Source of the DNA: a virus
Strand: one strand, 5' to 3'
DNA: 64,000 nucleotides
Virus record (IMG/VR): IMGVR_UViG_3300011113_000805
Location: 1-64,000 of that record
Part shown: positions 1,997 to 51,120 of the stretch, one piece after another
Position numbering within the stretch: the first letter of the stretch is position 1
How the letters are laid out: each line of letters opens with the position of its first letter
Notes under the pieces: generated by a model
Told to the model about the DNA's origin: nothing
What the model saw: only the letters and a program-made list of their open reading frames with translations
Database searches by the model: none
Program-made: the position numbers and the translations under genes

Positions 1997-2009
1997 TTTA
2001 TTTTTAGTC

Positions 2010-2029
2010 ATTATAAGCAGCTTTATAAT
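2010..2029 (-). promoter_or_regulatory. TATAAT-containing inverted repeat upstream of ART-LRR genes
   Basis: ATTATAA / TTATAAT form a 7-bp inverted repeat with a 6-nt loop. The right arm contains a perfect TATAAT (2010-2015, minus strand) about 13 nt before the ATG at 1996. No good -35 box lies 17 bp away. It could be a -10 element, an operator, or a weak terminator of the gene at 2069-3766. Confidence 0.35.
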
Positions 2030-2068
2030 AAAATTGCTAAGCTCTTTTGATTAATCAGCGGATTTTAT

Positions 2069-3766: not shown

Positions 3767-3778
3767 AAGATACCTTTG

Positions 3779-4546: not shown

Positions 4547-4567
4547 TTAGCTCTCCCAGGTTATAAC
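4540..4567 (+). promoter_or_regulatory. Sigma70-like promoter for the Dps-like gene
   Basis: -35 ATGACA (4540-4545), 16-bp spacer, -10 TATAAC (4562-4567). The predicted +1 falls at or within a base or two of the ATG at 4574, so the transcript would be leaderless or nearly so. This agrees with the lack of a Shine-Dalgarno sequence at usual spacing. Confidence 0.55.
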
Positions 4568-4573
4568 TATACA

Positions 4574-5044
4574 ATGCACAGCCATTCTGACTACATTATT
4601 GCTTACATTGCTTTCGTTAGAGCAGCTTACAGCTGGTTTCACGCAGCACACCATGTCACCAGCGGAGCAGCATTTGCCGGTGATCATGAGCTCTATTCTG
4701 AAATTTACAACGATTACCTGCAGGTACTTGATGGAATCATAGAAAAGTCCGTCGGAAGCTGTGGCATTGAGACGGTTGCCGCTCCAATTCCTTCACTAGA
4801 GCTTTCTATCGCTGTATTGAAGGGGTATCCAAGTCCCGAATCAATGACATCACTAGCGATTGCTGGTGCGGCACTTCAACTTGAGCAAGACTATCTTCAG
4901 GCAACCGACGAGCTCTTTCGAACACTAGAGCAGATGGGAAGCCTTCCTTTAGGGCTTAATGATTTCTTGGCGGCCTCGGCAAACAAGCATGATACATTTG
5001 TGTACAAGCTAACTCAAAGAGTAAAGTCAGAAGTTCAGGACTGA
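4574..5044 (+). CDS. Dps/ferritin-like protein
   Basis: 156 aa on the plus strand, one of three genes in this orientation. Residues ~20-55 match the ferroxidase spacing of Dps: His, 11 residues, His (GDHEL), then Asp at +15 and Glu at +19 (VLDGIIE). One usual acidic ligand four residues after the second His is Ser here. A Trp precedes the first His as in Dps (HW). Family role: iron oxidation/storage and protection of DNA from peroxide. No Shine-Dalgarno is seen; the mRNA may be leaderless (see promoter). Its 3' end overlaps the convergent gene by 10 bp. The fold call is good; activity is inferred. Confidence 0.65.
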   Translation: MHSHSDYIIAYIAFVRAAYSWFHAAHHVTSGAAFAGDHELYSEIYNDYLQVLDGIIEKSVGSCGIETVAAPIPSLELSIAVLKGYPSPESMTSLAIAGAALQLEQDYLQATDELFRTLEQMGSLPLGLNDFLAASANKHDTFVYKLTQRVKSEVQD

Positions 5045-5460
5045 GACTTCCTTTTTGTTCCCATAAGCCTGTCTATAATGGGATAGACAATATCAAAATT
5101 AGACTGTGGATTTCTAAAGTGATGTTCCCTGTGGTGATCGGCAATGGAACCGCTAGCGCCTTCATGTGATCTACGGTGGCGCCACGAATACAGAAGGACA
5201 TAGGAAATCGCGCCAAGACCCATTGCCGGTATCGCAAAGACAAGAAGTGCTAATGCAAGAAACAATATTGCATTCCATCCTGGAGAGAATAGAAAACCAC
5301 CCGGGTCACGAGGCTTTTTGTGATGATACCTGTGCTGCAAGTATAGTGATCTGAAGTGAGGCCAAAGACCTAGCTTACCATGCAGCACCCATCGATGGGT
5401 AGAGTAAAAGCCGGCAGCAAGAAGAGCATGGCCTAAGAAAAAATATAAAAGATGGAACAT
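5035..5460 (-). CDS. Fatty acid hydroxylase / sterol-desaturase-like membrane protein
   Basis: 141 aa with three His clusters typical of the di-iron fatty acid hydroxylase superfamily: HRWVLH (~22-27), HRYHH (~43-47) and HHREHH (~110-115). Hydrophobic segments lie at ~1-20, ~65-85 and ~80-95, so it is an integral membrane protein. It is short for the family but has all the His boxes. Such enzymes hydroxylate lipid acyl chains or carotenoids; the substrate here is unknown. ATG at 5460 follows AGGAGAGTGC. It lies 30 bp downstream of glmS and is probably co-transcribed. An auxiliary metabolic gene that could alter host membrane lipids. Confidence 0.7.
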   Translation of the reverse strand: MFHLLYFFLGHALLAAGFYSTHRWVLHGKLGLWPHFRSLYLQHRYHHKKPRDPGGFLFSPGWNAILFLALALLVFAIPAMGLGAISYVLLYSWRHRRSHEGASGSIADHHREHHFRNPQSNFDIVYPIIDRLMGTKRKSQS

Positions 5461-5490
5461 GCACTCTCCTGTAGGTACATATTACATGTT

Positions 5491-7308
5491 TCACTCAACG
5501 GTAACAGATTTTGCAAGATTTCTTGGCCTATCGATATCCTTGCCAAGAATTCTTGCTGTCTCATATGCAATAAGCTGAAGTGGAACAACAGTAACTAGAG
5601 GTGTGATGAGATGATGAGCCAGGTGTGGAACCTTGATAATATGATCAGCAATGCCTGCTAATGTCCCATCACTAGAATCCGTGACAATGATAATTTTGGC
5701 ACCTCTTGCCTTTGCCTCAATGATATTGGAGAGTGTTTTCTCGAACCAGCGATCCTGTGGGATTACAGCGACAACAGGTGTCTCACAGTCTATCAAAGAG
5801 ATGGGACCATGTTTCATCTCCCCTGCAGGATATCCAAATGATGGAATGTAAGATACCTCCTTGAGTTTAAGCGCCCCTTCACATGCAACAGGGGCCGAGA
5901 CACCTCTGCCAATAAAGAAAACTTGTCGGGCACATGATATCACCTTAGCGACATCAAGGGTCCTGTAATAATCATCACTTGAGAACCACTCTTGCAATAA
6001 GAATGGTGTCTGCAGTAATGAGCTTGCAAGGTGTGATCGCTGTTCATAAGAAAGCCCTCGAGACTTGCCAAAGTATAGTGACATTAGTACTAGGGCGGTG
6101 ACTTGTGATGTGAACGCCTTTGTGGAGGCAACAGACATTTCAGGTCCTGAGTGGATATAGATGCCATTCCCACATTCACGAGCGATAGTGGATCCTACGG
6201 AATTAACTATGCCGGTCGTTAGGGCCCCACGCTCGCGAGCCATTCTCATTGCATGAATTGTATCAGCAGTTTCACCAGATTGTGTAACACCCACAAAGAG
6301 ATCGCAAAGATCTATTTGTGGTGTTCGATATCGAAGTTCGGAGGCAATCTCAGCAGATGCCCTAAGACCGGCAAGTTCCTCTAAAGCATGAACACCTACC
6401 TGTGAAGCATAGTGCGATGTTCCACAAGAAACAAGGCTAACATGGTTAAGACTTGCAATCTGCGCTGGTGTTAAGGAAATGCCGCCAAGTTTCGCTCCAT
6501 CATGCACAATCCTTCCTGCAAGGCACCTCTCCATAGAGACAGGCTGTTCCCAAATCTCCTTCAGCATAAAGTGAGGAAATTCACCCATCTCACCAAGGCT
6601 TGATGTGTCAGGGACTGTCTCAGCATGCCTCTCAACCCGACCAGCAGGAATAAAAACCTCGTATCGATCTGGCCAGATAGAGGCGATATCACCGTCCTCG
6701 AGGTAGACGATATCACGTGTGTACTGAGATATTGCGGATGGATCACTTGCAATAAATGATTCATCCTTTCCAATCCCAATAATGAGCGGTGAGCCATTTC
6801 TTGCTAGCAATAACTGCTCGCTTCCCTGCATTGCAACTGCAATGCCCCAGGTACCTCGAAGCCTCATGACTGCCTGTCTAAATGCTTCCAGAGGAGAGGC
6901 ATCACGAAGATAGTGCCTGATAAGGTGAGGAATCACCTCGGTATCAGTCTCGGAAAGAAACTTTATGCCGATTGCTTCAAGTTCATTCCGGAGAGTGGAA
7001 TAGTTCTCGATAATGCCATTGTGAACAACAGCAATTTTTTGCTTGATATCAAAGTGAGGATGTGTATTAGGAATTGTCACACCACCATGTGTTGCCCACC
7101 GTGTATGGCCAATCCCTGTTCTTCCCTTACGAGCAGGAAGTTCTGCGAGATTTTTCACCTGTCCTAATGCCTTGCTATGATGAATCTTTTCACCAGAAAC
7201 AATGGCGATTCCGGCACTGTCATACCCACGATACTCCAGTCTTCGAAGGCCCTCGAGAAGAATGGGTGATGCCTGCTTTTTGCCTGTGTAACCTACAATT
7301 CCGCACAT
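5491..7308 (-). CDS. glmS: Glutamine-fructose-6-phosphate aminotransferase
   Basis: 605 aa, close to the usual ~609. The start is set at 7308 because the protein must begin MCGIVGY: Cys1, after Met removal, is the glutaminase nucleophile. A GAGGATAATC ribosome site precedes it, and the longer in-frame extension is rejected. Order: class II amidotransferase domain (RGYDSAGIAI, GHTRWATHG, NGIIENY, ETDTEVI), then two SIS domains (SCGTSHYAS, TQSGETADT, GRGVSAPVACEGALKLKE), ending NLAKSVTVE. It makes glucosamine-6-phosphate from fructose-6-phosphate and glutamine, the first step to UDP-GlcNAc. Full-length and apparently intact; unusual in a phage. The product may feed sugar modification of DNA or surface polymers. 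Confidence 0.95.
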   Translation of the reverse strand: MCGIVGYTGKKQASPILLEGLRRLEYRGYDSAGIAIVSGEKIHHSKALGQVKNLAELPARKGRTGIGHTRWATHGGVTIPNTHPHFDIKQKIAVVHNGIIENYSTLRNELEAIGIKFLSETDTEVIPHLIRHYLRDASPLEAFRQAVMRLRGTWGIAVAMQGSEQLLLARNGSPLIIGIGKDESFIASDPSAISQYTRDIVYLEDGDIASIWPDRYEVFIPAGRVERHAETVPDTSSLGEMGEFPHFMLKEIWEQPVSMERCLAGRIVHDGAKLGGISLTPAQIASLNHVSLVSCGTSHYASQVGVHALEELAGLRASAEIASELRYRTPQIDLCDLFVGVTQSGETADTIHAMRMARERGALTTGIVNSVGSTIARECGNGIYIHSGPEMSVASTKAFTSQVTALVLMSLYFGKSRGLSYEQRSHLASSLLQTPFLLQEWFSSDDYYRTLDVAKVISCARQVFFIGRGVSAPVACEGALKLKEVSYIPSFGYPAGEMKHGPISLIDCETPVVAVIPQDRWFEKTLSNIIEAKARGAKIIIVTDSSDGTLAGIADHIIKVPHLAHHLITPLVTVVPLQLIAYETARILGKDIDRPRNLAKSVTVE

Positions 7309-7339
7309 GATGTGATTATCCTCGCTTTGATTTGTTTGT

Positions 7340-7384
7340 TCAATTAAATAACAAATGCCCAGGTTGAATATCCAACCTGGGCAT
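7340..7384 (-). terminator. Rho-independent terminator after the GapR-like gene
   Basis: A perfect 12-bp stem (7355-7366 / 7373-7384, ATGCCCAGGTTG pairing with its complement) with a 6-nt loop, followed on the minus strand by TTTGTTATTTAATT. It sits 18 bp after the stop at 7403 and upstream of glmS. Confidence 0.75.
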
Positions 7385-7402
7385 GTCTGTTGCAAATTTT
7401 AC

Positions 7403-7630
7403 TTAAACGACAATTCCATCAATCTCATCGATATAGCTGTCACACTCAGGTTCCGAATCACCCAGACGAGACTTGATCTTTACGATTCGAATTGCCGCCT
7501 TGAGAGCCTTGATGTCGATCTTGTCCTCGTACTCCTCCATTAGAGCCTTTCGATCCTCCGACAGGAGTCGCATCTCCCCCTCGAGATGGGTAAGCTTCTC
7601 GATAAACTCTTTCACTACTGACTGGGACAT
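7403..7630 (-). CDS. GapR/DUF2312-like small DNA-binding protein
   Basis: 75 aa. The start at 7630 (MSQSVVKEF) is chosen because GAGGAATCAAAAA precedes it; the upstream in-frame extension has no ribosome site and overlaps another gene. The sequence is a coiled coil (FIEKLTHLEGEMRLLSEDRK) followed by a KALKAAIRIVK segment, the layout of the GapR/DUF2312 family, nucleoid-associated proteins that bind AT-rich over-twisted DNA. The match was judged by eye and is moderate. It is the last gene of the sigma-factor operon and is followed by a strong terminator. Confidence 0.6.
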   Translation of the reverse strand: MSQSVVKEFIEKLTHLEGEMRLLSEDRKALMEEYEDKIDIKALKAAIRIVKIKSRLGDSEPECDSYIDEIDGIVV

Positions 7631-7826
7631 TTTTTGATTCCTCGTTTGTACTAATGATAACCCTGGGAACGCTGGGGAAGAGTGCTTCAATCTCTTCCTC
7701 AGGTGGAGGTCCAATACCCCTCCTGACAAGGTAAGCCAGGAGCTCTTCCCTGCTTTGCAAGCCGTGAAAGCCTACAAAATTCTCAAGCTTGATATGACGA
7801 CGCTCTGAAAAATTATGCCAATCCAT
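7458..7826 (-). CDS. Small protein whose frame runs on into the GapR-like gene
   Basis: ATG at 7826, four bases after the stop of the upstream gene (TAATTGATG). The first ~62 residues (LENFVGFHGL, LLAYLVRRGIGP, EEEIEALF) look like genuine protein. After the A-run at ~7631-7636 the composition collapses to Ser/Gly/Arg-rich sequence read out of frame across the GapR-like gene, giving a ~170-bp overlap. A -1 shift at A_AAA_AAT would reach TAG four codons later, suggesting either a lost stop or an indel in the A-run. Function unknown. Confidence 0.45.
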   Translation of the reverse strand: MDWHNFSERRHIKLENFVGFHGLQSREELLAYLVRRGIGPPPEEEIEALFPSVPRVIISTNEESKNVPVSSERVYREAYPSRGGDATPVGGSKGSNGGVRGQDRHQGSQGGNSNRKDQVSSG

Positions 7827-7829
7827 CAA

Positions 7830-8096
7830 TTATGCCTCGATCTCTTTGTCTGTCCAGTGAGTTACGGAGACCATGAAAGCATTCACAGCCATCTGGGCAA
7901 TCTCCTCATTAAAGAGATTTGAGATCTCACTCTTTAATTTGAGCATTCTTCGTTCAGCATCAAGTGGATCACGAGTTTCTGCTAATGCCTTAACGAACAT
8001 TTCCATTAGATGGACAAGCATCTCCTCATCCCAATCAAGGGCCTCCAATAGTTCGGTGACCATATGAAGTCCTGAAGGGGTAAATGGAACTTTCAA
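7830..8096 (-). CDS. Small helical protein of unknown function
   Basis: 88 aa if it starts at the TTG at 8096, which overlaps the TGA of the upstream gene (TTGA). An ATG at 8063 with AGGACTTCAT ahead of it would give 77 aa; I cannot decide between them. The sequence is acidic and predicted all-helical (LLEALDWDEEMLVHLMEMF, AERRMLKLKSEI), with no recognised domain. It lies in the sigma-factor operon. Confidence 0.55.
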   Translation of the reverse strand: MKVPFTPSGLHMVTELLEALDWDEEMLVHLMEMFVKALAETRDPLDAERRMLKLKSEISNLFNEEIAQMAVNAFMVSVTHWTDKEIEA

Positions 8097-23393: not shown

Positions 23394-23405
23394 ATGGAGG
23401 CTGAA

Positions 23406-24275
23406 ATGTTTATTGAGAGAATTTCGACACCGAGAATCAATAAGAAAGGAGAACCATCGAAACAGAACAGGGTTATCTTTAAGTATGAGTGTGATACCTG
23501 CGGTGTGATTTACGAAAAGAGGCCCTGTAGCGCTAGCCGATCTACAAGCGGTCTTACTTTCTGTAGCAGAAAGTGCAGAGGTATGTCTGTTAGAGTCGGA
23601 AACGAAGCTTATCTTCTCACTAAAAAGAAGATGCTCGAGATTCACGGAGTTGAAAACTTGATGCAGCGCAAAGAAACAAGAGAGAAAATCAAGAAAACGC
23701 TCCTCGAGAGATACGGTGTTGAGAACCCTTCCCATTCTAAAGAATTCAAGGAAAAACGAAAAAGAACACATCTTGAGAGGTACGGTCACGAAGAAACTTT
23801 TCAGTCTCCGGAAATTCTCGCAAAGCGTGAGGTCACATGGATGAAGAAGTACGGGCAGAAAGATCCAAGAAATCAACCTCATCTGCAACAGATTGCAAAA
23901 GAAAAATCTCAAGAAACGATGATGCAGTATCCACAAAAGTGGTCATCAAAAATTGAGAATTCTTTTGCGGAGACCCTCTCATCTGTATTCGGTGAGGTGA
24001 TTAGACAAAAGCGGGTCAATCGATGGCCCATCGACTACTACATCCCTTCCATCGATACTTACATCCAGCTTGATGGGGTCTATTGGCACGGTCTTGACAA
24101 ACCAATTGATGAGATTAGAGAGTCAAGACGACCAAGAGACATCGGGAGAGTTCAAAAGTGGGAACAGGACAGAAAACAGGAAGAGTGGTTTGCCTCTCAT
24201 TCACTTCGTCTTGTTAGAGTGACCGACATCGAGGTGAAAGAGGGGAAAGCTCTTTCAAAAATTCAAAATCACTAA
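23406..24275 (+). CDS. Free-standing homing endonuclease-like protein (Vsr/EDxHD type)
   Basis: 289 aa on the plus strand, opposite to its neighbours. ATG at 23406 follows GGAGGCTGAA. The N terminus has a zinc pair (CDTCG, CSRKC). The middle has three repeats of the form LERYGVENPxxSxExKEKRK, a DNA-binding array seen in phage homing nucleases. The C terminus has IQLDGVYWHG and a later Asp, the Vsr-like catalytic core. No intron or intein surrounds it, so it is an intergenic mobile gene between tdk and the epimerase. Confidence 0.75.
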   Translation: MFIERISTPRINKKGEPSKQNRVIFKYECDTCGVIYEKRPCSASRSTSGLTFCSRKCRGMSVRVGNEAYLLTKKKMLEIHGVENLMQRKETREKIKKTLLERYGVENPSHSKEFKEKRKRTHLERYGHEETFQSPEILAKREVTWMKKYGQKDPRNQPHLQQIAKEKSQETMMQYPQKWSSKIENSFAETLSSVFGEVIRQKRVNRWPIDYYIPSIDTYIQLDGVYWHGLDKPIDEIRESRRPRDIGRVQKWEQDRKQEEWFASHSLRLVRVTDIEVKEGKALSKIQNH

Positions 24276-25431: not shown

Positions 25432-26919
25432 ATGAGCAAAAGACTCTTCGAAGACAAGTTCAAGCGCGAGACAGGAAAGCGTTTCACAGATGATCTTCAG
25501 AAAATAAAGGACGCTGTTGACAAGGAAAAATTTTTCGTTCATTTCACCGACACGCCTAAAATAGGAATCAATCCAAGAAGCACTTTCCTTCCAGGACTCT
25601 ACGCTTATCCGCTTACTCGGGAAATCTATGAGAAGTTTGTTATCTCAGTGGACGAGTACGCAAGAGGACAAGGCAGGGCAGGAAGATATGTTTTTCTACT
25701 AAAAATAAAACCTGATGCAAAAATCATTGAGGGAAAAGAGTTGGAGGGGAGAATTGTCAAGAACTTTGCGTATTGCATTGCTCCCTTGCTGGATAATAAT
25801 CTTGTAATAGCAGTTCCTAAGAATCGATATCTCGGCCATGAAGAAGTCGCAGAGCTTATTGAAACACACTATCGAGATGATATTATGCTCGGGTTGGAAC
25901 GAATTCGTTCTGAACTCAAAAGAATTGAGTTTCGCATCAACAAGAGATCAGCCAAACTTGCAGCCTTAAAGACCGTTCTAAGAGAAACGGCACCTGATGC
26001 CGGAGAATTACCAGAATGGATTAACGAGAAACTTTGGGATGGATCAAAGGAATCTAAGAGAAACATACAAAAACTAACATTGGATCATATCACAAATGAT
26101 GAGTTGGCAAGTGGGAAGCTTGCAAGTGCAATTTACACTTACAAAGATCATCCCATTACAGCCGGCATTCGAAACAGTGTTGTTATCTCTAATGACATAA
26201 TAGCACTGCAAAATCTTGCAAATCACAGCTATTCTGGGGCTGCAACAAAAAGATGGGATGTCCTAAGAGACCTATTTGTCTTTGACAAGAAGATGAACAC
26301 AGCATCGTTCATTCGAACAAAGAGCGGTGAAAGAAAGGAAATGAAGCAAATCGTTAATGAATGCCTTGAGAGAACCGTGCAGATAATGAAAATCTCTAAG
26401 GAGAAGCTATTGCAGATTCTGAAACAAGATTCTGTTGGAACAAATATACTGCTAGGTCTAGGTGATGCCAATGTCCTCATAGATACTGGCATCGATGTCA
26501 GAAATACAGCAGCCGGCTGGGGTGGAATTCTAGGCGACCTTGAAGCAGCTCAGGCATACATCAGACCTCCGATCGGAAAATCAATAGAGGTCATAGCGAT
26601 GGTGGATCGATTTGAAGGTGATCCTGACAGTAAAACACCACCTGGCACTAGTACTCCCGATAAGGACTATGGAAAAGTTGCCGACGAAGAATGGAGAGAT
26701 TGGGCGGCAGGTCGGGAATCTAGTGCCAGGGATTTGTCACCTCGTGCTCTGGCACTCAATAAGAAATTCCTGGGCAAAGGATATCAGCAGGCAAAATACG
26801 ATAGGGACAATCGACTTATAAGGCCCGGAAAGGAATCGCCTACCGAGAGATGGAAGGATGCCAAGCTGGAAATGATTGTCAGAGACTGCATTAGGGAAAT
26901 GATCTTCTCCAAGAATTAG
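25432..26919 (+). CDS. ADP-ribosyltransferase-like protein with C-terminal tag-like helix
   Basis: 495 aa on the plus strand. ATG at 25432 follows TTTGAGGAAGCG; the upstream TTG-initiated extension is rejected. Residues ~33-60 read FFVHFTDTPKIGINP then GLYAYPLT, matching the His...Tyr spacing of the ART/PARP-like fold and resembling phage proteins that I recall as 'FxHFTxxxKxGINPxS'. The middle is helical and unrecognised. The C terminus LEMIVRDCIREMIFSKN resembles the recurring packaging-type tag, but at the opposite end. It overlaps the convergent dnaE 3' half by 4 bp. A possible host-modifying effector. Confidence 0.6.
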   Translation: MSKRLFEDKFKRETGKRFTDDLQKIKDAVDKEKFFVHFTDTPKIGINPRSTFLPGLYAYPLTREIYEKFVISVDEYARGQGRAGRYVFLLKIKPDAKIIEGKELEGRIVKNFAYCIAPLLDNNLVIAVPKNRYLGHEEVAELIETHYRDDIMLGLERIRSELKRIEFRINKRSAKLAALKTVLRETAPDAGELPEWINEKLWDGSKESKRNIQKLTLDHITNDELASGKLASAIYTYKDHPITAGIRNSVVISNDIIALQNLANHSYSGAATKRWDVLRDLFVFDKKMNTASFIRTKSGERKEMKQIVNECLERTVQIMKISKEKLLQILKQDSVGTNILLGLGDANVLIDTGIDVRNTAAGWGGILGDLEAAQAYIRPPIGKSIEVIAMVDRFEGDPDSKTPPGTSTPDKDYGKVADEEWRDWAAGRESSARDLSPRALALNKKFLGKGYQQAKYDRDNRLIRPGKESPTERWKDAKLEMIVRDCIREMIFSKN

Positions 26920-27974
26920 ACATCAATGTACTTCATTTGATGTACATTAGTGGATGTTCCCCAGGAGGGATCGGACTTCACGTTGGCTAGCCAGATGCTA
27001 TATGGGACAAGTTTCGATCCTCGATTTCCCCACACACGAAGCCAAGTCACCTGCATAGTTGTATCTGTCACCTTGAGGCGCATGAAGGGCTTACCATTCT
27101 TTGTCTGCTTCTCCTCCACCTGAAGGACACAGAACCAGCAGACATCCTCACCACCAGAAGAAAGCTCAGCAATAGGTGGAAGTTCTGCCTGCCGAATACG
27201 GGCCATGATCTCATCAGGAAAGATAATGTGATGGGGTGCTGAACCTGAAGTCTCCACCTGTTGTTGAACTTTTTGTGTCCGATCCCAGTCATCAATGTGC
27301 CTGACAGTCTCGATGAGTTCCAGGAGAATCGGTGGCGCATTGGCCTTTGCCGCCTTTCGCGGGTTCATGCCCCACCGACCCTTCTTCAGGGTGCCGTAGT
27401 TGCCGATGATAATCTCATGAAGTTGTCGATGATTAAGAAGGCGACCGTCCTGAAACTCTTCCAATGTTCCAAAGGCCTCCATAAAGAGGAGTGATTCGAG
27501 GCAGCTCCTATTCACCTTTGTGTGCCTCCACTTACCTTCAGAATCAAAGAGAAGCTCATCCAGGTTTCGATAGGGCCTATTCTCAAGGATTTCGGAGACA
27601 GCCGTGTCACCAACTCGCTTTAGAGATGAGAGCGGAGGAACGAATGCCTGTAAATCATTGGACCAGCTCCAGACATCACCAGAAGTATTGATGTCTGGTG
27701 GTGAGATTTTGTAGCCCATTTGCTTGATCTCTGAGACTACCACAGAGAGACCTTCAACATTTCCACTTTCTGACTGCAGGCAGGTTGCAAGCCAATCAGT
27801 TTCATAGTGTGTCATTAGCCATGCACCATAATAGGAGTCAATGGCATATGCAACCGAGTGAGAATTTGAAGTCAAAAGGCCGTTTGCAAGATAAAACTGG
27901 TGATCCGGATGATCCACTTCAAGGTCATAGGTCTGGTGTTCGCCGATGCTCTTGTAGGACTTAACTTTTGCCAT
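26916..27974 (-). CDS. dnaE: DnaE C-terminal half, preceded by C-intein
   Basis: The first 37 residues are the C-terminal half of a split intein (TYDLEVDHPDHQFYLANG, ending LLTSN). The C-extein SHSVAYAIDSYYGAWL follows, the standard continuation of bacterial Pol III alpha after YGFNK. Helix-hairpin-helix-type segments (LKRVGDTAVSEIL) and an OB-fold region (WFCVLQVEEKQTKNGKPF) complete the polymerase C terminus. The ATG at 27974 (SD AGGTGAAG) is preferred over a GTG three codons earlier. It must be joined to the N half (28821-31742) by protein trans-splicing to give full replicative polymerase. Confidence 0.92.
   Translation of the reverse strand: MAKVKSYKSIGEHQTYDLEVDHPDHQFYLANGLLTSNSHSVAYAIDSYYGAWLMTHYETDWLATCLQSESGNVEGLSVVVSEIKQMGYKISPPDINTSGDVWSWSNDLQAFVPPLSSLKRVGDTAVSEILENRPYRNLDELLFDSEGKWRHTKVNRSCLESLLFMEAFGTLEEFQDGRLLNHRQLHEIIIGNYGTLKKGRWGMNPRKAAKANAPPILLELIETVRHIDDWDRTQKVQQQVETSGSAPHHIIFPDEIMARIRQAELPPIAELSSGGEDVCWFCVLQVEEKQTKNGKPFMRLKVTDTTMQVTWLRVWGNRGSKLVPYSIWLANVKSDPSWGTSTNVHQMKYIDV
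27864..27974 (-). other. Split intein, C-terminal half (DnaE)
   Basis: 37 aa ending His-less LLTSN followed by Ser+1. Block F is TYDLEVDHPDHQFYLANG. Partner N-intein at 28824-29135. Confidence 0.88.
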
Positions 27975-28929
27975 AATCTTCACCTATAAGAATAAGCCCT
28001 GTTGATTTTTCAGTAAGGGCACTTAGAATTTGTGTAATACAGGATTCTTTGAATTTGCCCTTTTGAAATTCTGAGTGAGAAACCCTAATTACGGTATACC
28101 CTTTCTTTGTCAAGGCTTCATTTAATATTAAATCAGACCGCCTTATGTTTTCAAGTTTCTCAGCTCCGAATATTGGCAAAAAGTGAACAGGACCATCAAA
28201 TTCTACCACCACCTTCAACAGCGGATCCATGATATCGATTTGTCGTCTCTTCGAAATCGTGTTAAACGATACATCAAATATTCTTTGATTTTTACGAAAC
28301 CCAACATGATGTTTGCTAAGCATGTCAAATAAGGCTTTTTCAGGATAGCTTTGCTTAACAGCATGCATTCTCATAGTGCATTTCGAATAAAATTCTTCAG
28401 GATTGGAAGATCTCCACTTTGCAAGTGCAATTGTTCTTGCATGAAGAATTTCAGGTTTGTTTGAAGTAACTCTTGCTACACGTGATGATCTTTCACGACT
28501 TTTTTCACTCCTATTAAGATTGGACAAATTTTCACTTCTTGCCTTAATGGCACTAGGTGACCTTCGAATGCCTGATGATTTTGCTTCACCATGGCCGGCC
28601 CCATTTATTTTCCCAGCACTACTGTACTTTTTAACACATTCGTCTGCTGCAATTTGACCAGTATAGTCTTTCTTGGTAATGCCATGAGATTTTCTTAGGT
28701 GACGAGTTAAGATTCGAAACTTTTCTCCGCATATAAGGCAGACAACAAAATCCTTTCCTTCAGTTAGAGAAATACATTTCTCGCATGAAAGAACATGTGA
28801 CCAGAATATTGAGTTTTCCCTTAGGAAAGATCTTCCGCAGTCACAACAATTTCCAAGTCTTCCTGAATGATTTTCCAGATTGGAAGCATCTGACCGCAAG
28901 TTGTCCTGAATTTGTGATCCATCGTGCAT
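27961..28929 (-). CDS. Homing endonuclease (EDxHD type) between dnaE halves
   Basis: 322 aa. ATG at 28929 with GGAG 10 nt upstream lies inside the end of the dnaE N half (109-bp overlap); the stop overlaps the start of the C half. Two zinc modules: CDCG...CEKC and CLICGEKF...HLRKSH (C2H2-like). The C-terminal nuclease core has VVEFDGPVHF and a later Asp (RRSDLIL), the EDxHD pattern of Vsr-related nucleases. This arrangement matches the published 'fractured gene' pattern, in which a nuclease gene separates split-intein halves. Base composition is AT-richer than dnaE. Likely promotes spread of the locus. Confidence 0.85.
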   Translation of the reverse strand: MHDGSQIQDNLRSDASNLENHSGRLGNCCDCGRSFLRENSIFWSHVLSCEKCISLTEGKDFVVCLICGEKFRILTRHLRKSHGITKKDYTGQIAADECVKKYSSAGKINGAGHGEAKSSGIRRSPSAIKARSENLSNLNRSEKSRERSSRVARVTSNKPEILHARTIALAKWRSSNPEEFYSKCTMRMHAVKQSYPEKALFDMLSKHHVGFRKNQRIFDVSFNTISKRRQIDIMDPLLKVVVEFDGPVHFLPIFGAEKLENIRRSDLILNEALTKKGYTVIRVSHSEFQKGKFKESCITQILSALTEKSTGLILIGEDYGKS

Positions 28930-31742
28930 CGAACTTTTTCTCCTGTATCAAGCTCAAACTCGTGCAGCTCTAAGACACCATGGTCATGCTTTGCACGAAC
29001 CTGAACAAACAAGTCTTTTCCTGTTGATTCTTCACGAGACTTAACAAAGCAACCTGGGGTGATGTCCTTGAGCATCAAAGTTTCAATAAACTCACCATTA
29101 TGTGAATACGTATGTACCTCTTCCTCAAAGTGACAAGTTTTATTGAAGCCATAAAGTGAGAAGTACGCGATGGTATCAAAGAGGTCCTGGGCTTGCTTTG
29201 GTGTCAATCCGGATTTCTCAATACAGCCGGAGACAAACTTCTTCTCCAGTGCCTCCTTCTCCTCAGACTTCTTACCAAGTGAGGTAAGATCTTTCTTCAC
29301 CAGAGTCTTTCGCATCTTGTCAGAGTCACCAGGTGAGAAACCTGCGAGTTTCTGAGCAAGTACCATGAATTGTTCCTGGAACACAATAAAGCCGCATGTG
29401 GGGCCCAGGACTTCTTCGATAACAGGATGATCGTACTTGATGGCATCTCGATTCTGCTTTGCCTCCACATATTTTTTGTGCACATTGGCTTTCAAAGGAC
29501 CGGGGCGATAGATCGCCGTAATGGTGGAGAGGTCGATAATATTCTCAGGCTTTGCTGCCACACAGAACTTTCGAGCTCCATCTGATGTGAACTGGAAGAT
29601 GCCTGACCAACGACCCTCCTGATAGACATGCCTGAAGACTTTTGAATCATTAGGCTCCACATAGCGACAATTGAGCTTCTGATCATAGAAGTCTTTTACT
29701 TCGACAAAGGTGGGATCTCGACCAAGCTCTCGGAGGAGGATTCGACGAATGCAGTCCTCCACCATTTGCATTTGCTTCAGGCCCAAGAAATCAAACTTCA
29801 GAAAGCCGTTCTCTTCCAAGTTTCGAATATTGACACCTTCGGTCCACGGTGTCTGGAGTTCTCCCTTTACCGTGATGAGAGGCATGTGCTTCTCAAGTTC
29901 TGGGCAGATGAGGACGCCGCCAGCATGTCGACCAACAGATCGATTCATCATGAAGAGTGATCGCACCTTGTCTTGTACCTGAGGATACTTCTCCATAAAC
30001 TCACGGTATCGAGGTGAGTGCTCCATACAGTCCTCGTGCTTCAGAACAAACATGGACTTCTCCATGTTAGGATCACGGGATTTCTCGGCAACCTCACGTT
30101 CAAGGGGTCCGGTGACGGCATTGACTTCATCGAAGGGAACACCGTAGAACTTGGAGACATCTTTTACCAGTGACTTCAGCTTCAGGGTATTGAAGTTGGA
30201 GACCGGCACCACTGATTCCTCACCGAAGATCTCACGTGCCGCCTCAATGAGCTTATCACGATCACCGACATCAGTGTCAATATCTGGCCAAGATGCCTTC
30301 TGCCGAGAGAGAAACCGCTCCCAGAGGAGATCATACTTAATAGGATCCACGTGTGTGATACCAAGGAGATAGTTCACAAGGGAGCCTGCGCCACTTCCGC
30401 GGCCGGCGCCTGGAAGGGTCCTGTTCTCGGCGACCTTAAAGACTTTCTCCAAGGTAAGAAAGTAGTCCTCAAACTTGAGGAACTTGATATCACCAAGCTC
30501 CATTTTTGCACGTTCGATATAGACAGGATCCTTGTGGAGTCCTTCCTCAATGAGTCGCTCCTTCACGATCTGTGTCAATTGACTCATCCCGGTCTGCTCA
30601 GGTGTGTTGAACTTTGGAAGCTTTGCGCTACCATCAAACCATACCTGCTGACATTGCTCCCAAACAATATCGTGTGACCGCTCGATGGCATCTCGGACTC
30701 TCTCCTCGTTGCCACGGTAGAAGCTATTGTCCGGGATAAGGCTCACGAACTCGTCCCAGATCTCATTCGCATTCTTCGGATAAAGCTCAGCCTTCAGATC
30801 TGTCCTCAGTGGGAGGACAGGTGCTGTGCCATCATTCTTGATGCGACCGGGCTGAAGCTGACGATAGATCTCACGAGACTCCCAGAAGTCCGGACCTGGG
30901 TAGTGCGAGTCTGAAGTAACGATGAGTGGGACGCCAGTCTTCTGTGAAGCATCTAGAAGAAACCGATTCGTAAGATTCTGGGCAGGAAGCTTGTTGAACT
31001 GTAGCTCTAGGAAGAAATTATCGCGACCAACAGCATCAGTAAAGCGATCCACCATATTTCCAAGACGTCCCAGGATACGATTACGACCAGCTACTCCTGC
31101 GACATCATAGAGATCAGGTGTCAGCTCGGAGAACTTCTTGTCAGGAAACTCTCGAAAGATATTTCCAGAGGCGAAACCGCCTACACAGGCCGTGCTGACA
31201 ATAAGGCCGCGACCATGTTCCCGAAGCATCTGAAAGTCGATTCGAGGAAACTTATAGAAACCCTCACGGAAAGATCGCTTCACCAGTGTAAAGAGATTTG
31301 CCAGGCCCTCATTGTCACGTGCCACCACCACTATGTGGTAGCGTCGATTAATGTTATCAACAACATCGGAGGATCGAGTCTCATCGGCATCCTCCACCAC
31401 AAGGCGACCATTGCCGTCCTCGTCAACAAGGGACTCCTCCTCCTGGCTCATTCCTGACTTGGAGAGGGCATATGCCTTTCGCCACTCATTGAGATCCGGA
31501 ACAAAGTAGAACTCAACACCAAAGAGCTGTCGAAAGTGCTTTCCTTTGGTGATGAGCTTTTTTGCGTGAGCATGAGCATGAGCAAGACCATTGCCATTGC
31601 CATGATCTGTCAGGGTCCAAGAGTCAAGTCCATTGGAGATACTGAAGTCGATGTGATCGGAGGGCTGCCCAAATCCATCGTAAGGTGAAAAATGGCTATG
31701 ACCATGAATGGAGGCATATCGACGAGGAGGTTGGATGATCAT
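28821..31742 (-). CDS. dnaE: DNA polymerase III alpha N-terminal part plus N-intein
   Basis: 973 aa, of which residues 1-869 are polymerase. PHP domain at the N terminus (HGHSHFSPYDG ~13-23, TDHGN ~45-49, SDSHYPG ~277-283). GAGRGSGAGSLVNYLLG (~445-461) and the catalytic PDIDTD (486-491, two Asp) are in the family-C palm, with a third acidic site later (FLKFDFLG region). The extein ends LYGFNKT, then the N-intein starts at Cys870. A replicative polymerase is unusual for phages, which more often carry family A or B. Needs trans-splicing with 26916-27974. Confidence 0.95.
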   Translation of the reverse strand: MIIQPPRRYASIHGHSHFSPYDGFGQPSDHIDFSISNGLDSWTLTDHGNGNGLAHAHAHAKKLITKGKHFRQLFGVEFYFVPDLNEWRKAYALSKSGMSQEEESLVDEDGNGRLVVEDADETRSSDVVDNINRRYHIVVVARDNEGLANLFTLVKRSFREGFYKFPRIDFQMLREHGRGLIVSTACVGGFASGNIFREFPDKKFSELTPDLYDVAGVAGRNRILGRLGNMVDRFTDAVGRDNFFLELQFNKLPAQNLTNRFLLDASQKTGVPLIVTSDSHYPGPDFWESREIYRQLQPGRIKNDGTAPVLPLRTDLKAELYPKNANEIWDEFVSLIPDNSFYRGNEERVRDAIERSHDIVWEQCQQVWFDGSAKLPKFNTPEQTGMSQLTQIVKERLIEEGLHKDPVYIERAKMELGDIKFLKFEDYFLTLEKVFKVAENRTLPGAGRGSGAGSLVNYLLGITHVDPIKYDLLWERFLSRQKASWPDIDTDVGDRDKLIEAAREIFGEESVVPVSNFNTLKLKSLVKDVSKFYGVPFDEVNAVTGPLEREVAEKSRDPNMEKSMFVLKHEDCMEHSPRYREFMEKYPQVQDKVRSLFMMNRSVGRHAGGVLICPELEKHMPLITVKGELQTPWTEGVNIRNLEENGFLKFDFLGLKQMQMVEDCIRRILLRELGRDPTFVEVKDFYDQKLNCRYVEPNDSKVFRHVYQEGRWSGIFQFTSDGARKFCVAAKPENIIDLSTITAIYRPGPLKANVHKKYVEAKQNRDAIKYDHPVIEEVLGPTCGFIVFQEQFMVLAQKLAGFSPGDSDKMRKTLVKKDLTSLGKKSEEKEALEKKFVSGCIEKSGLTPKQAQDLFDTIAYFSLYGFNKTCHFEEEVHTYSHNGEFIETLMLKDITPGCFVKSREESTGKDLFVQVRAKHDHGVLELHEFELDTGEKVRCTMDHKFRTTCGQMLPIWKIIQEDLEIVVTAEDLS
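28824..29135 (-). other. Split intein, N-terminal half (DnaE)
   Basis: 104 aa beginning Cys-His-Phe after FNKT. Block B is KVRCTMDHKFRTTCG. There is no endonuclease domain inside. It ends VVTAEDLS at the TAA. The insertion site is the conserved YGFNK/SH of DnaE. Confidence 0.88.
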
Positions 31743-46529: not shown

Positions 46530-47531
46530 CTACTTGCAACGACTCCACCCGCAAGAGGAACACGATAGGCATCCCTCTTGGTAGATGAGATCTCCGTTGC
46601 CACACTCCGGACATCCCTTTTCACTTGACTTAGTGCCATCCTTAATATACCCCTTGAGAACCCTAGCAATTACCTTTGCAAATGAGAACATATCACTGTT
46701 TTTATCCTTTTGCAGCTGCTCAACGACGTAATGAATTGGAACATTGTGACGTAAAGCAAGTGAGATTGTTCGCGTGAATGCACCCTGTGTTGAATTGTCG
46801 AAAAGTGTGACAATATCCTTGAAGACTAGATTGTCATCATCACCGACTGGAACGAGGAGATTGTATGTAGTAACTCCTTCACGCTTACCATTTTTAACCA
46901 ATGTGCCTGACTTGTATCGCTTTGGAATCTCAATATTTTCAGGAATGCCACAAAATACCTCGTAGGGCTTCCCCTCATTGAGTCCCACCAGAATGAGCCA
47001 AGATGTTCCTCCAATATTTGCTCTATGAATATCGCACTCTAGGGTCTTTGGCCTCTTTGGTGTGAGACGACCGTCAGCAAGGGGTTTTGGCTGGACTGTC
47101 TTGGGCTCTTCAGACTGCACTAAGACACCGGTTCTGCAACCGTCACGATAGACCGTAAATCCCTTGCACCCAGACTTCCATGCCTGAAGATAGACGTCAT
47201 TAACGGTCTCACGAGTCGCTGAGTTGGGGAGGTTGCAATTATGAACCGTAAAACCATTTGCTGAAAATGAATTCCCATCAGGAACTGTTAAATCATAAGT
47301 TCTTTCATTTCCTAGCATTTCAATTGAAAGAATCTCATCGAAATCATCGGCTGTTTTGGATTCATCAAGCCATCGCTTAAGCGTCCAATATCCGGGATTT
47401 TTAATATCTGATTCATTCAGATGCGCGGTAAGTAATAAAAATTTTGCCGCTTCCTGTTTGTTTACTCGAAATTCACGAGGAATTCGAACTTCTGCATTCT
47501 TACAGATAACTTCTACAGCCAAGTCTTGCAT
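46530..47531 (-). CDS. nrdJ: NrdJ C-terminal part, preceded by C-intein
   Basis: 333 aa. Residues 1-98 are an unusually long C-intein ending GNSFSANGFTVHN. The C-extein starts CNLPNSATRETVNDVYLQAW, then GCKGFTVYRDGCRTGVL, the class II RNR C-terminal barrel. It ends with a Cys-rich redox/zinc tail (CPECGNGDLIYQEGCLSC, CGWSRC). ATG overlaps the endonuclease stop (TAATG) behind GGAAGG. Needs trans-splicing with the N part (48619-51120). Confidence 0.93.
   Translation of the reverse strand: MQDLAVEVICKNAEVRIPREFRVNKQEAAKFLLLTAHLNESDIKNPGYWTLKRWLDESKTADDFDEILSIEMLGNERTYDLTVPDGNSFSANGFTVHNCNLPNSATRETVNDVYLQAWKSGCKGFTVYRDGCRTGVLVQSEEPKTVQPKPLADGRLTPKRPKTLECDIHRANIGGTSWLILVGLNEGKPYEVFCGIPENIEIPKRYKSGTLVKNGKREGVTTYNLLVPVGDDDNLVFKDIVTLFDNSTQGAFTRTISLALRHNVPIHYVVEQLQKDKNSDMFSFAKVIARVLKGYIKDGTKSSEKGCPECGNGDLIYQEGCLSCSSCGWSRCK
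47238..47531 (-). other. Split intein, C-terminal part (NrdJ site 2)
   Basis: 98 aa, ending VHN before Cys+1. Block F is ERTYDLTVPDGNSFSANG. The first ~58 residues (FRVNKQEAAKFLLLTAH, WTLKRWLDES) exceed a normal ~35-40 aa C-intein and may be a remnant of an internal endonuclease domain. Confidence 0.82.
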
Positions 47532-48574
47532 TATAACCTTCCCAGTATTTTAAGCAGATCTTCATTAAAGATCTCGGTTTCAGTAAGAACATGAAAGTTT
47601 TGGCCAAGAACATCTCTTGCTGCCGAAATTTTCAAGGCATTAACATGCTCACACACTTTTTTAAGTGGCTTTATTTCTAGAACAATTGTACTACCTATAG
47701 CATTGACAAATGCTATATCAGGATAGTAGTGCCTTCTTGAATTGCTTATCATATACTGAATTCTTTCAGGTGTTATTACTCTTTGAATTCTACATTGTCC
47801 AAGAAGATTGTCTAAAGCTTCAAAAACTTTTTTCTCCCATGATGATCTATAAAAAAACTTATCGTTTTCCTGATTGTTCATTCTATACCACCCCTTCTCA
47901 GAGTTCTTATATCCATTCTTATCAGATTCTAAAGAAGATCTAGAGAACCTATTTGATAGATACTCACTATAAAGTGAGTCTATTGCGTCAGGAGTAAGTT
48001 CATCAATATTTTTAATGTGCATATGCAATAGAATGTGCTTCATTTTCCAAGCATGAGTATTCTTCACTCTAAAGTTTTTGTAAGCTTCTTTAGTAATCTG
48101 CTTTCTCTTGTTGTCAGAGAAATTTTTGCTATATGCAATTCCAAGCATTGAACATGCTGATTTAAGAACCCTTTCCTTGTCAGCCAACTTTATTGCATCA
48201 TGATTGCCATATTTTTTAAGCCTTCCTATTGCTATCTTTTCTGAGTGGTTTGATAGATTTTTGAATTCGCGTGCCCATAATTCTAACACATCACTATCAC
48301 ATAATCCATCGAAAGGAATGTCATGTGATATCAAAAAGTTTTTTGCACGTGTTATTTTGCTTGATTTACCATTCCTAGAAAAATCACCTGTTTCTCTTAT
48401 CTTTCTGATTCTTAATGTGTCACCATGCATTCTTCTGTTATGATAATCAGGTGTTGCCTTAAAACATTTTAATGAACAGCAGCCATGCTTCATACTAACA
48501 GATTTCGAAATTATACTGTCCATTTGATCGACAATTTTATTGCAAACTTTGCATTCGAATGTTGTTCTAGGCAC
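47531..48574 (-). CDS. Homing endonuclease-like protein between nrdJ halves
   Basis: 347 aa. A GTG start at 48574 with GGAG 7 nt upstream, the ribosome site lying inside a 12-bp hairpin. N-terminal zinc pair CKVCNK...CCSLKC. Long AT-rich helical middle (KMKHILLHMHIKNI). The C-terminal nuclease core HYYPDIAFVN...STIVLEIKPL has the Asp and Glu-x-Lys of PD-(D/E)XK enzymes. It differs from the EDxHD nuclease in the dnaE locus, although the gene arrangement is the same. Likely drives homing of the broken nrdJ locus. Confidence 0.78.
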   Translation of the reverse strand: MPRTTFECKVCNKIVDQMDSIISKSVSMKHGCCSLKCFKATPDYHNRRMHGDTLRIRKIRETGDFSRNGKSSKITRAKNFLISHDIPFDGLCDSDVLELWAREFKNLSNHSEKIAIGRLKKYGNHDAIKLADKERVLKSACSMLGIAYSKNFSDNKRKQITKEAYKNFRVKNTHAWKMKHILLHMHIKNIDELTPDAIDSLYSEYLSNRFSRSSLESDKNGYKNSEKGWYRMNNQENDKFFYRSSWEKKVFEALDNLLGQCRIQRVITPERIQYMISNSRRHYYPDIAFVNAIGSTIVLEIKPLKKVCEHVNALKISAARDVLGQNFHVLTETEIFNEDLLKILGRL

Positions 48575-48615
48575 TTTCTACTCCACAGGATCTACATATG
48601 CCATGGAGTAGAAAG
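48574..48615 (-). promoter_or_regulatory. Hairpin occluding the endonuclease ribosome-binding site
   Basis: A perfect 12-bp stem (CTTTCTACTCCA at 48604-48615, minus strand; TGGAGTAGAAAG at 48574-48585) with an 18-nt loop. The GGAG Shine-Dalgarno and the first G of the GTG start lie in the 3' arm. In read-through mRNA from nrdJ this would block translation, as described for T4 I-TevI. Confidence 0.6.
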
Positions 48616-48618
48616 AAA

Positions 48619-51120
48619 TTATGATAACTTAACTCTGTCACCGATATTAATGTCCTTTAATTCTGCCCATGCCTCAAGACCATCATCATCGTTAAGCAAA
48701 ATAAACTTATGATCTAGTGTTGTTTTGATGCTTAATCCGGATTTTGTGGTCACACGATAAACCGGCTTAACACCTTGATCTGAGACAAATCCAATCATTG
48801 CTAAACGGCCATGATGATTAACCGTCATGAGGTCACTAACAGTTGCCGAACTTTCAGATTGACAGTTAGAAAGCTCGGCAATTTCATCGGCATAAAGCAA
48901 CCCACTATCTGTTTCAACAAGAGAATCACCTGATACACAAGTTTTAGAAATTGAGTGATCAACCCATCGCTGGGCAGCCGCTTGAATCTTTACCGAATTT
49001 ACCCAGTCAATGTCATTTGCAGTTGCACCCCAATATGGACTTTCCTGAGGATCTGACTTACCCGTGATATCCATCCACTTTTTGAACCAATGATGATAGA
49101 CAGTATATTCCTGCCACTTATCACCCATTGGATCCACAAAATCAACTCGGGATGTGATATCACCCTGCGTGATCTTTCGACGACGTTTATAGGAGAGCAG
49201 GAATGCTGGTTCAATTCCGGATGTTGTCTGGGTTAGGATGGAAACAGATCCTACAGGTGCTGTGGTTGTGAGGGCAATATTACGACGACCCGATGTGCGC
49301 CACATCTCGAGGGCACCTGGTGACTCAGTCTCGACTACCTGCATAATCTTGCCAAGGTAGCTATGTCCTTTCTCTTTCTCCCAGTCCCAGACAGGGAAAG
49401 CACCACGCTCGTGTGCCATCACTAGTGAGGAGTAGTGAGACCAGGTGGCCAGTGATTTGTAGATCTTCTCAGTAACCGCAATAGACTCCTCTGAGCCATA
49501 CCGAAGTCCTAGTGCTGCCAGGGCATCACCAAGGCCCGTGATCCCAAGTCCTGTCCTGCGACCATTGCTACCGGCAGCACGAATCTTCTCCCAGAGATCC
49601 TGTTCAATCTGCTTCACATGCTTGGGCTGTGGATCGTTCTTGATTTTCTCCAGAATGCGATCGACACACTCGACCTCAAGATCAACAAGGTCATCCATTA
49701 GGCGCTGTGCATCCTGAGTGACAGTTGCAAACTCATCAAAATTGAAACTTGCATTTGGCGTAAATGGGTTTCGAATGAATGAGGTGAGATTGATCACCAT
49801 CAGGCGGCAAGAGTCATATGGGCTGAGCGGGATTTCTCCACAATTGTGAACCAGAATATCATTTGCAAAGAAATTATGTACATCATCAACGGTTAGATCA
49901 TAAACATCTTCATTTTTTACCGCTGAGATGTCTTGAATTTCATCCCATTCTGTATTAATTTTGAGAATTTTATCACTAGTTTGAAGCTCGCCCGCCTCAA
50001 TCCAGCCTCTCTGTGTAAAAACTCTGTGATCAGGAGTTAGCTTAATTGATTTACCACTCTTTGTGGTAAGTTGCAGAATTTTTGCATCTTCCTTTGTTTT
50101 GAAAGCAGTCGCTGTTTTCTGTACAACCTTATTTTCCTTAATGTCATATGCACAAACCATAAACTGTGCATTATTATCTGCAAGTTCTTTAACAGTCTTT
50201 GGTCCTGCATTTGTTTTTACAACTGTGTCACCGGTGACACACGGATTCGTTGAGATTGTCTTGTATCCGACATCCCTATAGCAATCGACAATGCCTTCAT
50301 TGACCACCGTATCCCAGAAAAGAGCTCCAGGTTCAGCAGATGCCCAGGCAGCATCAATAAACTTCTCCCAAACTTGCCTTGCATTGACCACGCGTGTAAT
50401 CTCAGCATCTTCAGGAGCTGCCTCTACGGGCCATCGAAGAGTAAAGTCCTCGCCCTTCTCAACCGCCCGCATAAACTCATCAGTAAATCTGATTGAGATA
50501 TTTGCACCGGTAACTTTCTTAAGGTCACGCTTGATGTCAATAAATGTTTCAAGCTCAGGATGATTACAATGAACGGTTAGCATCAGGGCCCCACGCCGGC
50601 CGCCTTGAGCAACTTCCCGTGTAGAGTTGGAGAAGCGCTCCATAAAGACACCGATACCATCAGTCGTCCGGGCCGCATTGGTTGTTGGTTGTCCCTTTGG
50701 ACGAATGGTGGAGATGTCAAAGCCAACGCCTCCGCGGCGCTTCATAATCTGCACCTGTTCCTGATCGCTGAAGAGGATGCCGCCGTAGGAGTCGTGAGGC
50801 TGATCAATAACAAAACAGTTGGAAAGTGACTGAAGCTGATGAGGATTGCCAATTCCTGACATTGGCGATCCCTGAGGGACTACTTGGGCAAATCCCGTGA
50901 GGAGACTCAGGATTCTTTCCTCACTGAGTGGGTTTGGATACTTTGCCTCGATCCTCGCAAACTCCTTTGCAAGCCGTGTATGTAGCTGCCCAGGATCGGT
51001 CTCTAGCAAGTCACCCTGATGATTCCTGAGAGCGTACTTCAGAAAGACATCCGGTGCAAGCTCATCACCGCCAAAGGCCTCACGAAGGTGTTCAAGAACG
51101 CTTTGATTTTTGTTACTCAT
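48619..51120 (-). CDS. nrdJ: Class II (B12-dependent) ribonucleotide reductase N-terminal part with inteins
   Basis: 833 aa from the ATG at 51120; the 21-codon extension overlaps the helicase gene. Extein features: SLSNCFVIDQPHDSYGGIL (substrate-side Cys), RRGGVGFDISTIRP, STREVAQGGRRGALML, STNP/CGEIPLSPYDSCRL, then TGLGITGLGDALAALGL and TTAPVGSVSILTQTTSGIEP. Ends VDHSISKT. It carries one complete mini-intein (49843-50241) and the N half of a second, split intein (48622-48939). Reduces ribonucleotides using adenosylcobalamin, needing no oxygen or second subunit. Functional only after cis- and trans-splicing. Confidence 0.94.
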   Translation of the reverse strand: MSNKNQSVLEHLREAFGGDELAPDVFLKYALRNHQGDLLETDPGQLHTRLAKEFARIEAKYPNPLSEERILSLLTGFAQVVPQGSPMSGIGNPHQLQSLSNCFVIDQPHDSYGGILFSDQEQVQIMKRRGGVGFDISTIRPKGQPTTNAARTTDGIGVFMERFSNSTREVAQGGRRGALMLTVHCNHPELETFIDIKRDLKKVTGANISIRFTDEFMRAVEKGEDFTLRWPVEAAPEDAEITRVVNARQVWEKFIDAAWASAEPGALFWDTVVNEGIVDCYRDVGYKTISTNPCVTGDTVVKTNAGPKTVKELADNNAQFMVCAYDIKENKVVQKTATAFKTKEDAKILQLTTKSGKSIKLTPDHRVFTQRGWIEAGELQTSDKILKINTEWDEIQDISAVKNEDVYDLTVDDVHNFFANDILVHNCGEIPLSPYDSCRLMVINLTSFIRNPFTPNASFNFDEFATVTQDAQRLMDDLVDLEVECVDRILEKIKNDPQPKHVKQIEQDLWEKIRAAGSNGRRTGLGITGLGDALAALGLRYGSEESIAVTEKIYKSLATWSHYSSLVMAHERGAFPVWDWEKEKGHSYLGKIMQVVETESPGALEMWRTSGRRNIALTTTAPVGSVSILTQTTSGIEPAFLLSYKRRRKITQGDITSRVDFVDPMGDKWQEYTVYHHWFKKWMDITGKSDPQESPYWGATANDIDWVNSVKIQAAAQRWVDHSISKTCVSGDSLVETDSGLLYADEIAELSNCQSESSATVSDLMTVNHHGRLAMIGFVSDQGVKPVYRVTTKSGLSIKTTLDHKFILLNDDDGLEAWAELKDINIGDRVKLS
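48622..48939 (-). other. Split intein, N-terminal part (NrdJ site 2)
   Basis: 106 aa starting CVSGDSLVETDSG after HSISKT. Block B is GLSIKTTLDHKFIL. Ends DRVKLS at the stop. Partner at 47238-47531. The insertion site SKT/CNLPN lies in a conserved NrdJ segment. Confidence 0.88.
49843..50241 (-). other. Contiguous mini-intein (NrdJ site 1)
   Basis: 133 aa, from CVTGDTVVKTNAG after STNP to NDILVHN before CGEIPLSPY. Block B is IKLTPDHRVFTQRG; block F is VYDLTVDDVHNFFAND. There is no endonuclease domain, so it is a mini-intein at the well-known NPC site of RNR. Confidence 0.93.

Follow-up and report, generated by a model that had tools for sequence, protein, structure and literature searches.

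We examined the class II ribonucleotide reductase gene (NrdJ) of the viral record IMGVR_UViG_3300011113_000805, which is 257,178 bp long; the stretch that was analysed, hereafter the window, comprises its first 64 kb (64,000 nucleotides, nt). The record carries a large-phage gene set, including a DnaB-like helicase, UvsX, DNA polymerase III alpha and the class II reductase. NrdJ was split over two minus-strand open reading frames (ORFs) with a nuclease ORF between them (51120 to 46530). Its coding sequence was interrupted twice: by a contiguous intein, int1, and by a split intein whose N-terminal half (IntN2) and C-terminal half (IntC2) flank the nuclease (Table 1).

The NrdJ_Z equivalog model TIGR02504 scored 410.7 bits against a cut-off of 399.95, which places the protein among the class II reductases. 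The intein_Nterm model TIGR01445 gave 80 bits over the protein, in two stretches (NCBIfam cut-off 24.5), and intein_Cterm TIGR01443 gave 30 bits (cut-off 15.6). Splicing residues were complete on all intein parts: C1, TPDH (int1) or TTLDH (IntN2), YDL and HN/C. The GC content of the intein and nuclease DNA was 31–40%, versus 46.5–50% for the exteins. The first cysteine after int1 aligned with C322 of Thermotoga maritima NrdJ, an NPC-motif residue that we take to be the thiyl-radical cysteine. The first-pass annotation had claimed a complete 133-amino-acid (aa) mini-intein at the NPC site, and we found it at STNP/C with all its splicing residues; the second claim, a split intein at SKT/CNLPN enclosing a PD-(D/E)XK-type nuclease ORF, was borne out by the sequence and its relatives. 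The break in the enzyme lies inside an intein, splicing motifs are present on both halves, and a free-standing endonuclease gene sits between them. Judged from sequence, the arrangement is a ‘fractured gene’ with a split intein, of a kind already known.

Table 1. Positions of the parts of the interrupted NrdJ and DnaE genes in the window.
Feature	Position	Strand	Details and evidence
NrdJ N-half ORF	48619-51120	-	Contains int1, ends in IntN2
NrdJ N-extein part 1	50242-51120	-	293 aa, C-terminal STNP; PF02867, TIGR02504, PDB 1xje matches
int1, contiguous intein	49843-50241	-	133 aa, STNP/C...VHN/CGEIPLS; PF14890, TIGR01445, PDB 8ubs matches
NrdJ N-extein part 2	48940-49842	-	301 aa, CGEIPLS...SISKT; alignment to T. 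maritima NrdJ
IntN2	48619-48939	-	106 aa + stop, SKT/CVSGD...DRVKLS-stop; C1, TTLDH; TIGR01445
Spacer with hairpin	48575-48618	-	44 nt, TTTCTACTCCA...TGGAGTAGAAA; RNA fold z -2.7 to -3.3
Free-standing nuclease ORF	47531-48574	-	347 aa, GTG start; phrog_218 match, invariant residues, TnsA fold match
IntC2	47238-47531	-	98 aa: 1-63 extension, 64-98 canonical IntC, C-terminal VHN; TIGR01443; L002 homologue
NrdJ C-extein	46530-47237	-	235 aa + stop, CNLPNSAT...; PF12637, TIGR02504, phrog_84 matches
DnaE IntN end	28821	-	
DnaE nuclease	27961-28929	-	ROS/MUCR zinc finger + DUF559-like domain
DnaE IntC	26916-27983	-	Start MKIMAKVK..., end TSN/SHSVAYA

The same NrdJ layout was found in L002, a contig from another metagenome. 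Identity between the window and L002 was 76% for IntN2, 60–62% for IntC2 and ~53% for the nuclease. Synonymous divergence (dS) was saturated in this pair, and the analysis was limited to nonsynonymous divergence (dN) and codon-position identities. The IntC core was 83% identical and had the lowest dN among the segments (0.11), below the exteins (0.15–0.19), int1 (0.19) and IntN2 (0.20); the IntC extension (0.42) and the nuclease (0.38–0.48) had higher values. Codon positions 1 and 2 were more conserved than position 3 in every segment, suggesting that all segments are, or formerly were, translated under protein-level selection.

Chance or mis-assembly would not be expected to produce this layout a second time, in an independent contig. 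The SKT/CNLPN site was uninterrupted in 41 other NrdJ loci, many of them ~80% identical, with the +1 cysteine already there. We concluded from L002 and these 41 relatives together that the SKT break is no artefact. That the window is a metagenomic contig could still invite the view that the break in NrdJ arose in assembly. We find this scarcely credible given the independent contig, the protein-level constraint on every segment, and the presence of the 44-nt spacer, its hairpin and a TAATG overlap between nuclease and IntC. It is also conceivable that NrdJ is non-functional, or that its two halves assemble non-covalently into a working enzyme, the intein halves being degenerate. Phage Aeh1 provides the precedent with its genes-in-pieces NrdA, a two-part enzyme that is functional without splicing, as cited in PMC2988022 and PMC10448857. 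For the window we regard this as very improbable, since all splicing residues are kept, the IntC core has the lowest dN of the segments, the exteins are intact and constrained, and the intein models score above their cut-offs.

The window and L002 were not sisters in the extein tree, and most lineages between them have empty SKT sites. The intein states at the STNP/C site were likewise scattered over this tree. Such a patchy distribution is what a mobile element would be expected to leave. Used directly as queries, the window nuclease and both halves of the SKT intein yielded no SKT-site member beyond L002; matches in phages H1-H3 and H17 seemed to enter the SKT intein, and their sites proved uninterrupted. 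L002 itself encodes NrdJ in three ORFs (2003-8005), interrupted by one intein at each of three sites. Two of the inteins are split, with a Vsr-like nuclease at LTIHC/NHPE and a TnsA-like nuclease at SKT/C.

We then placed int1 among its relatives, which were gathered using int1 and the L051 contig nuclease as search queries. In 56 contigs (18 + 38, some of them near-duplicates), the same nuclease family lies inside a fractured NrdJ at STNP/C, and this occurrence is new here. The layout runs from IntN to a stop, then a 250–300-aa nuclease of the same catalytic family, then IntC. All 38 of the further nuclease matches were upstream of an NrdJ IntC, and 37 had IntN upstream; the remaining one begins at the contig end. 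L095, from the earlier search, has the nuclease without adjoining intein halves, and L116, L117 and L136 have split STNP/C inteins without a nuclease of the SKT/STNP family. In L116 (5001-5583) and L117 (5001-5453), the intein is in two ORFs with no nuclease between, across gaps of 112 and 12 nt. The family includes the published split intein NrdJ-1, represented by L089 (100% across both the IntN and the IntC query), and the NrdJ-1 structure PDB 8ubs matches int1. Thus int1 is homologous to the NrdJ-1 clade and inserted at STNP/C, but it is contiguous and has no internal nuclease; on these homologies it belongs to an STNP/C intein family that is otherwise split.

Other inteins were seen around this site. 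Contiguous HNH-type inteins, distantly related, occupy STNP/C in L005, L008, L018, L038, L054 and L057 (933 bp) and in L027, L035 and L036 (1443 bp). More inteins seemingly start downstream of the STNP/C-site IntC in L114 (~1350), L116 (5950) and L248 (~1950). The genome-contig search with int1 returned a single record, a 38% relative in a haloarchaeal genome (Halegenticoccus soli; L256, 4001-4450).

Because int1 is contiguous and nuclease-free within an otherwise split family, we hypothesized that it is a re-fused split intein. A tree of 55 inteins comprised 3 contiguous and 52 split sequences, the only contiguous members of the STNP/C family being those of the window, L002 and L102 (L103 and L104 are identical to L102). 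The contiguous L002 stood beside the split L099 (support 100/94), and the contiguous L102 stood beside the split L110 (98/89), deep among split forms. The window grouped with L106, L099 and L002 (98/92). An approximately unbiased (AU) test rejected a single contiguous clade (p 0.0004–0.017). If fracture were irreversible, ~10 (8–12) independent gains would be needed versus 3 losses in the 23-row tree, and a two-state Mk model gave the ancestor of the window’s clade a probability of 0.92–0.97 of being split. The L002/L099 DNA alignment was interrupted at the nuclease position, and the nuclease and intein trees had most deep groups in common. The three tree positions, the count of gains versus losses, the Mk result and the L002/L099 alignment favor nuclease loss with re-fusion, and the best reading of these comparisons is that this happened at least twice. 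We consider it probable that the contiguous mini-inteins of the window, L002 and L102 have independent origins, the nuclease gene being deleted and the trans-splicing halves re-fused in frame, so that fractured genes can heal. In the open-licence literature, our searches turned up no description of split-intein re-fusion.

Several observations weigh against this reading. The AU test gave p 0.035–0.134 for the window and L002 as one clade, and the number of re-fusions is for this reason two or three. Within the window’s clade, histories with a split and with a contiguous ancestor are one step apart, and distant contiguous-intein outgroups root the tree near that clade. The L099 nuclease did not group with the L106 nuclease, though their inteins group; because of this conflict, the nuclease may have re-invaded a contiguous intein. 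The nuclease-based search enriches for split members.

These points bear on the opposite history, in which the contiguous state of int1 is ancestral for its clade and contiguous mini-inteins were invaded again and again by the nuclease at one position, giving fracture without healing. It is usually assumed that cis inteins become split ones, and homing eases repeated gains beyond what parsimony allows; the conflicting placements of the L099 nuclease and intein, as well as the root near the window’s clade, also speak for it. We nevertheless judge this history unlikely, while taking it more seriously than any other alternative. It calls for some ten independent gains at one position in place of three losses, and it has against it the modeled split ancestor, the agreement of nuclease and intein trees in most deep groups, and the depth of L102 among split forms.

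The 347-aa SKT nuclease consists of an N-terminal cysteine motif, a helical middle and a C-terminal PD-(D/E)XK domain. Residues E247, D286, E300 and K302 were invariant among 16 nuclease family members, forming the catalytic set E...PD...ExK. The full protein had zero matches in Pfam, and its C-terminal domain matched phrog_218 (T4 gp4-type head closure nuclease; 3.8e-9). The L002 homologue matched phrog_218 at 1.2e-13 and PF08722 (TnsA-like N) at 2.2e-5, with 25.4 bits versus a curated cut-off of 26.5; the window domain had no match to PF08722. The nearest solved sequence to the family profile was T7 endonuclease I, a weak match (E 0.18). For the predicted domain 228-346 (predicted local distance difference test, pLDDT, ~85–90), the top fold match was TnsA (probability 1.00, E 0.03). 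These profile and fold matches mark the domain as a PD-(D/E)XK domain like those of TnsA, T4 gp4 and T7 endonuclease I. No match to the Vsr domain was obtained for the SKT nuclease, in contrast to the nuclease at the third NrdJ site of L002 (1e-4), where L026 also has a Vsr-like nuclease. The SKT nuclease differs from both the Vsr-like third-site nucleases and the DUF559-like nuclease in DnaE.

Its best phage family being phrog_218 and its profile resembling T7 endonuclease I, a junction resolvase, the ORF might instead encode a nuclease for phage repair or packaging, similar to T4 gp4 or a resolvase, that was inserted by happenstance and has no part in homing. We think this improbable, because the family lies between NrdJ intein halves at nearly every locus examined, and its extra N-terminal regions and patchy distribution are typical of homing genes. 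In L042 (3603-4527) and L002 (~6190) the nuclease genes are frameshifted in split-intein loci that are otherwise intact, suggesting that nuclease decay can leave the splicing halves in place.

The spacer from the IntN stop to the nuclease start folds into a hairpin whose 3' arm contains the GGAG Shine-Dalgarno sequence of the nuclease. A hairpin with a different sequence stands at the same place in L002, and RNA folding found a significant hairpin at the nuclease start in 15 of 17 loci that carry this nuclease family, but in none of three loci where the nuclease is of another kind. Sequestration of the ribosome-binding site (RBS) is not universal, because in L110 the Shine-Dalgarno sequence lies outside the stem. 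The ATG of the IntC ORF overlaps the nuclease stop (TAATG), and this ORF has an AAGG of its own; IntC may be coupled to nuclease translation or translated independently. RBS hairpins regulate the homing endonuclease genes I-TevI/II/III, segB and mobE, as treated in PMC2988022. An I-TevI-style late promoter inside the hairpin was considered and rejected: TACTTAT-like loops occur in several relatives, yet the window hairpin has no such site, and neither ACTTATA nor TATAAATA was in excess in the window.

Residues 1-63 of IntC2 were predicted to be helical, with pLDDT ~70–85 over residues 1–50. Searches of Pfam and PHROGs, hhalign and a fold search detected no relatives of this extension outside L002. 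By eye, its RIPREF... stretch resembles LAGLIDADG (DOD) inteins of L080, L083 and L086. We rejected a LAGLIDADG remnant, as the hhalign probability was <1%, nothing in Pfam or PHROGs backed such an origin, and the fold search was empty.

Taken together, these results support, in our view rather strongly, the following account of the locus. Each NrdJ half would be translated as a protein of its own, and the two would be ligated at SKT/C by protein trans-splicing between the 106-aa IntN and the 98-aa IntC. Cis-splicing of int1 at STNP/C would restore the cysteine that aligns with the class II radical cysteine. The 347-aa nuclease, a putative homing endonuclease, would cut intein-free SKT/CNLPN alleles, with repair copying in the IntN-nuclease-IntC unit, and the RBS hairpin would limit its translation. 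In this account int1 would itself derive from a fractured intein of the NrdJ-1 family, by deletion of the nuclease and re-fusion of the halves. Against the account stands the frameshift in the L002 nuclease gene: either the nuclease is dispensable there or the contig is in error.

A second replication gene in the window, DnaE (DNA polymerase III alpha; 26916-31742, minus strand), is also fractured. It had been noted beforehand that dnaE is broken likewise by a nuclease of a different family, and this proved correct: the DnaE nuclease has a ROS/MUCR zinc finger and a DUF559-type domain. By its domain content, it is probably in the same broad PD-(D/E)XK superfamily as the NrdJ nuclease. No significant RBS hairpin was found there at the listed start. 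The unnamed PHROG 22215 is matched in its N-terminal part by the DnaE nuclease and in its C-terminal part by NrdJ nucleases, a pattern that suggests mosaic exchange of zinc-finger and nuclease modules. The lone plus-strand ORF at 23394-24275 matched DUF7487 and a homing-endonuclease PHROG and is probably a free-standing homing endonuclease gene. Outside the window, at 88811-89788 of the record (minus strand), a 573-aa frame gave a weak intein-splicing match (E 1.7e-4), possibly another intein in the same genome.

The common picture has split inteins as the final stage of a one-way path that breaks up a contiguous intein. If re-fusion is true, split inteins break genes reversibly, and one codon of phage NrdJ cycles between being empty, fractured and healed. 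The intein sisters L002 and L099, which differ mainly in that the first is fused and the second fractured, make the reverse step testable. The family also supplies natural fused/split pairs and many relatives of NrdJ-1, a very fast split intein with biotechnology use. Also new are the nuclease of the family and the split intein whose IntC half carries the unusual helical extension.

The fractured genes of Dassa et al. (2009) reportedly carry split inteins whose halves are separated by a free-standing endonuclease gene, with NrdJ as one of the hosts. The window is alike in having a phage-type DNA-synthesis gene, a split intein and a free-standing endonuclease gene between. It differs in the SKT/CNLPN insertion, the 63-aa helical IntC extension, the second, contiguous intein in the same protein, and a nuclease that resembles TnsA, T4 gp4 and T7 endonuclease I and gave no match to Vsr. 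Those fractured genes are cited in PMC3653736 and PMC7090010. The split DNA polymerase B of phage MIJ3 (PMC6892783) resembles the window as a jumbo-phage replication gene with a split intein and an endonuclease ORF between; it differs in the host gene and in its HNH nuclease. It has a contiguous relative in Salicola phage SCTP-2, which the discussion in PMC6892783 does not treat as a fusion. The T-even and Aeh1 hairpin genes I-TevI, segB and mobE, as described in PMC2988022, share with the window an RBS hairpin and an endonuclease gene inside a nucleotide-metabolism gene; in contrast, no late promoter was found in or near the window hairpin, and the nuclease family is another. The closest likeness to int1 is NrdJ-1 (PDB 8ubs, L089), which is homologous, occupies essentially the same site (STNP/C vs NPC/S) and has at its locus a nuclease with the same catalytic motif as the window’s SKT nuclease. 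NrdJ-1 is a split intein and has its nuclease gene, whereas int1 is a single contiguous intein of 133 aa that is free of a nuclease.

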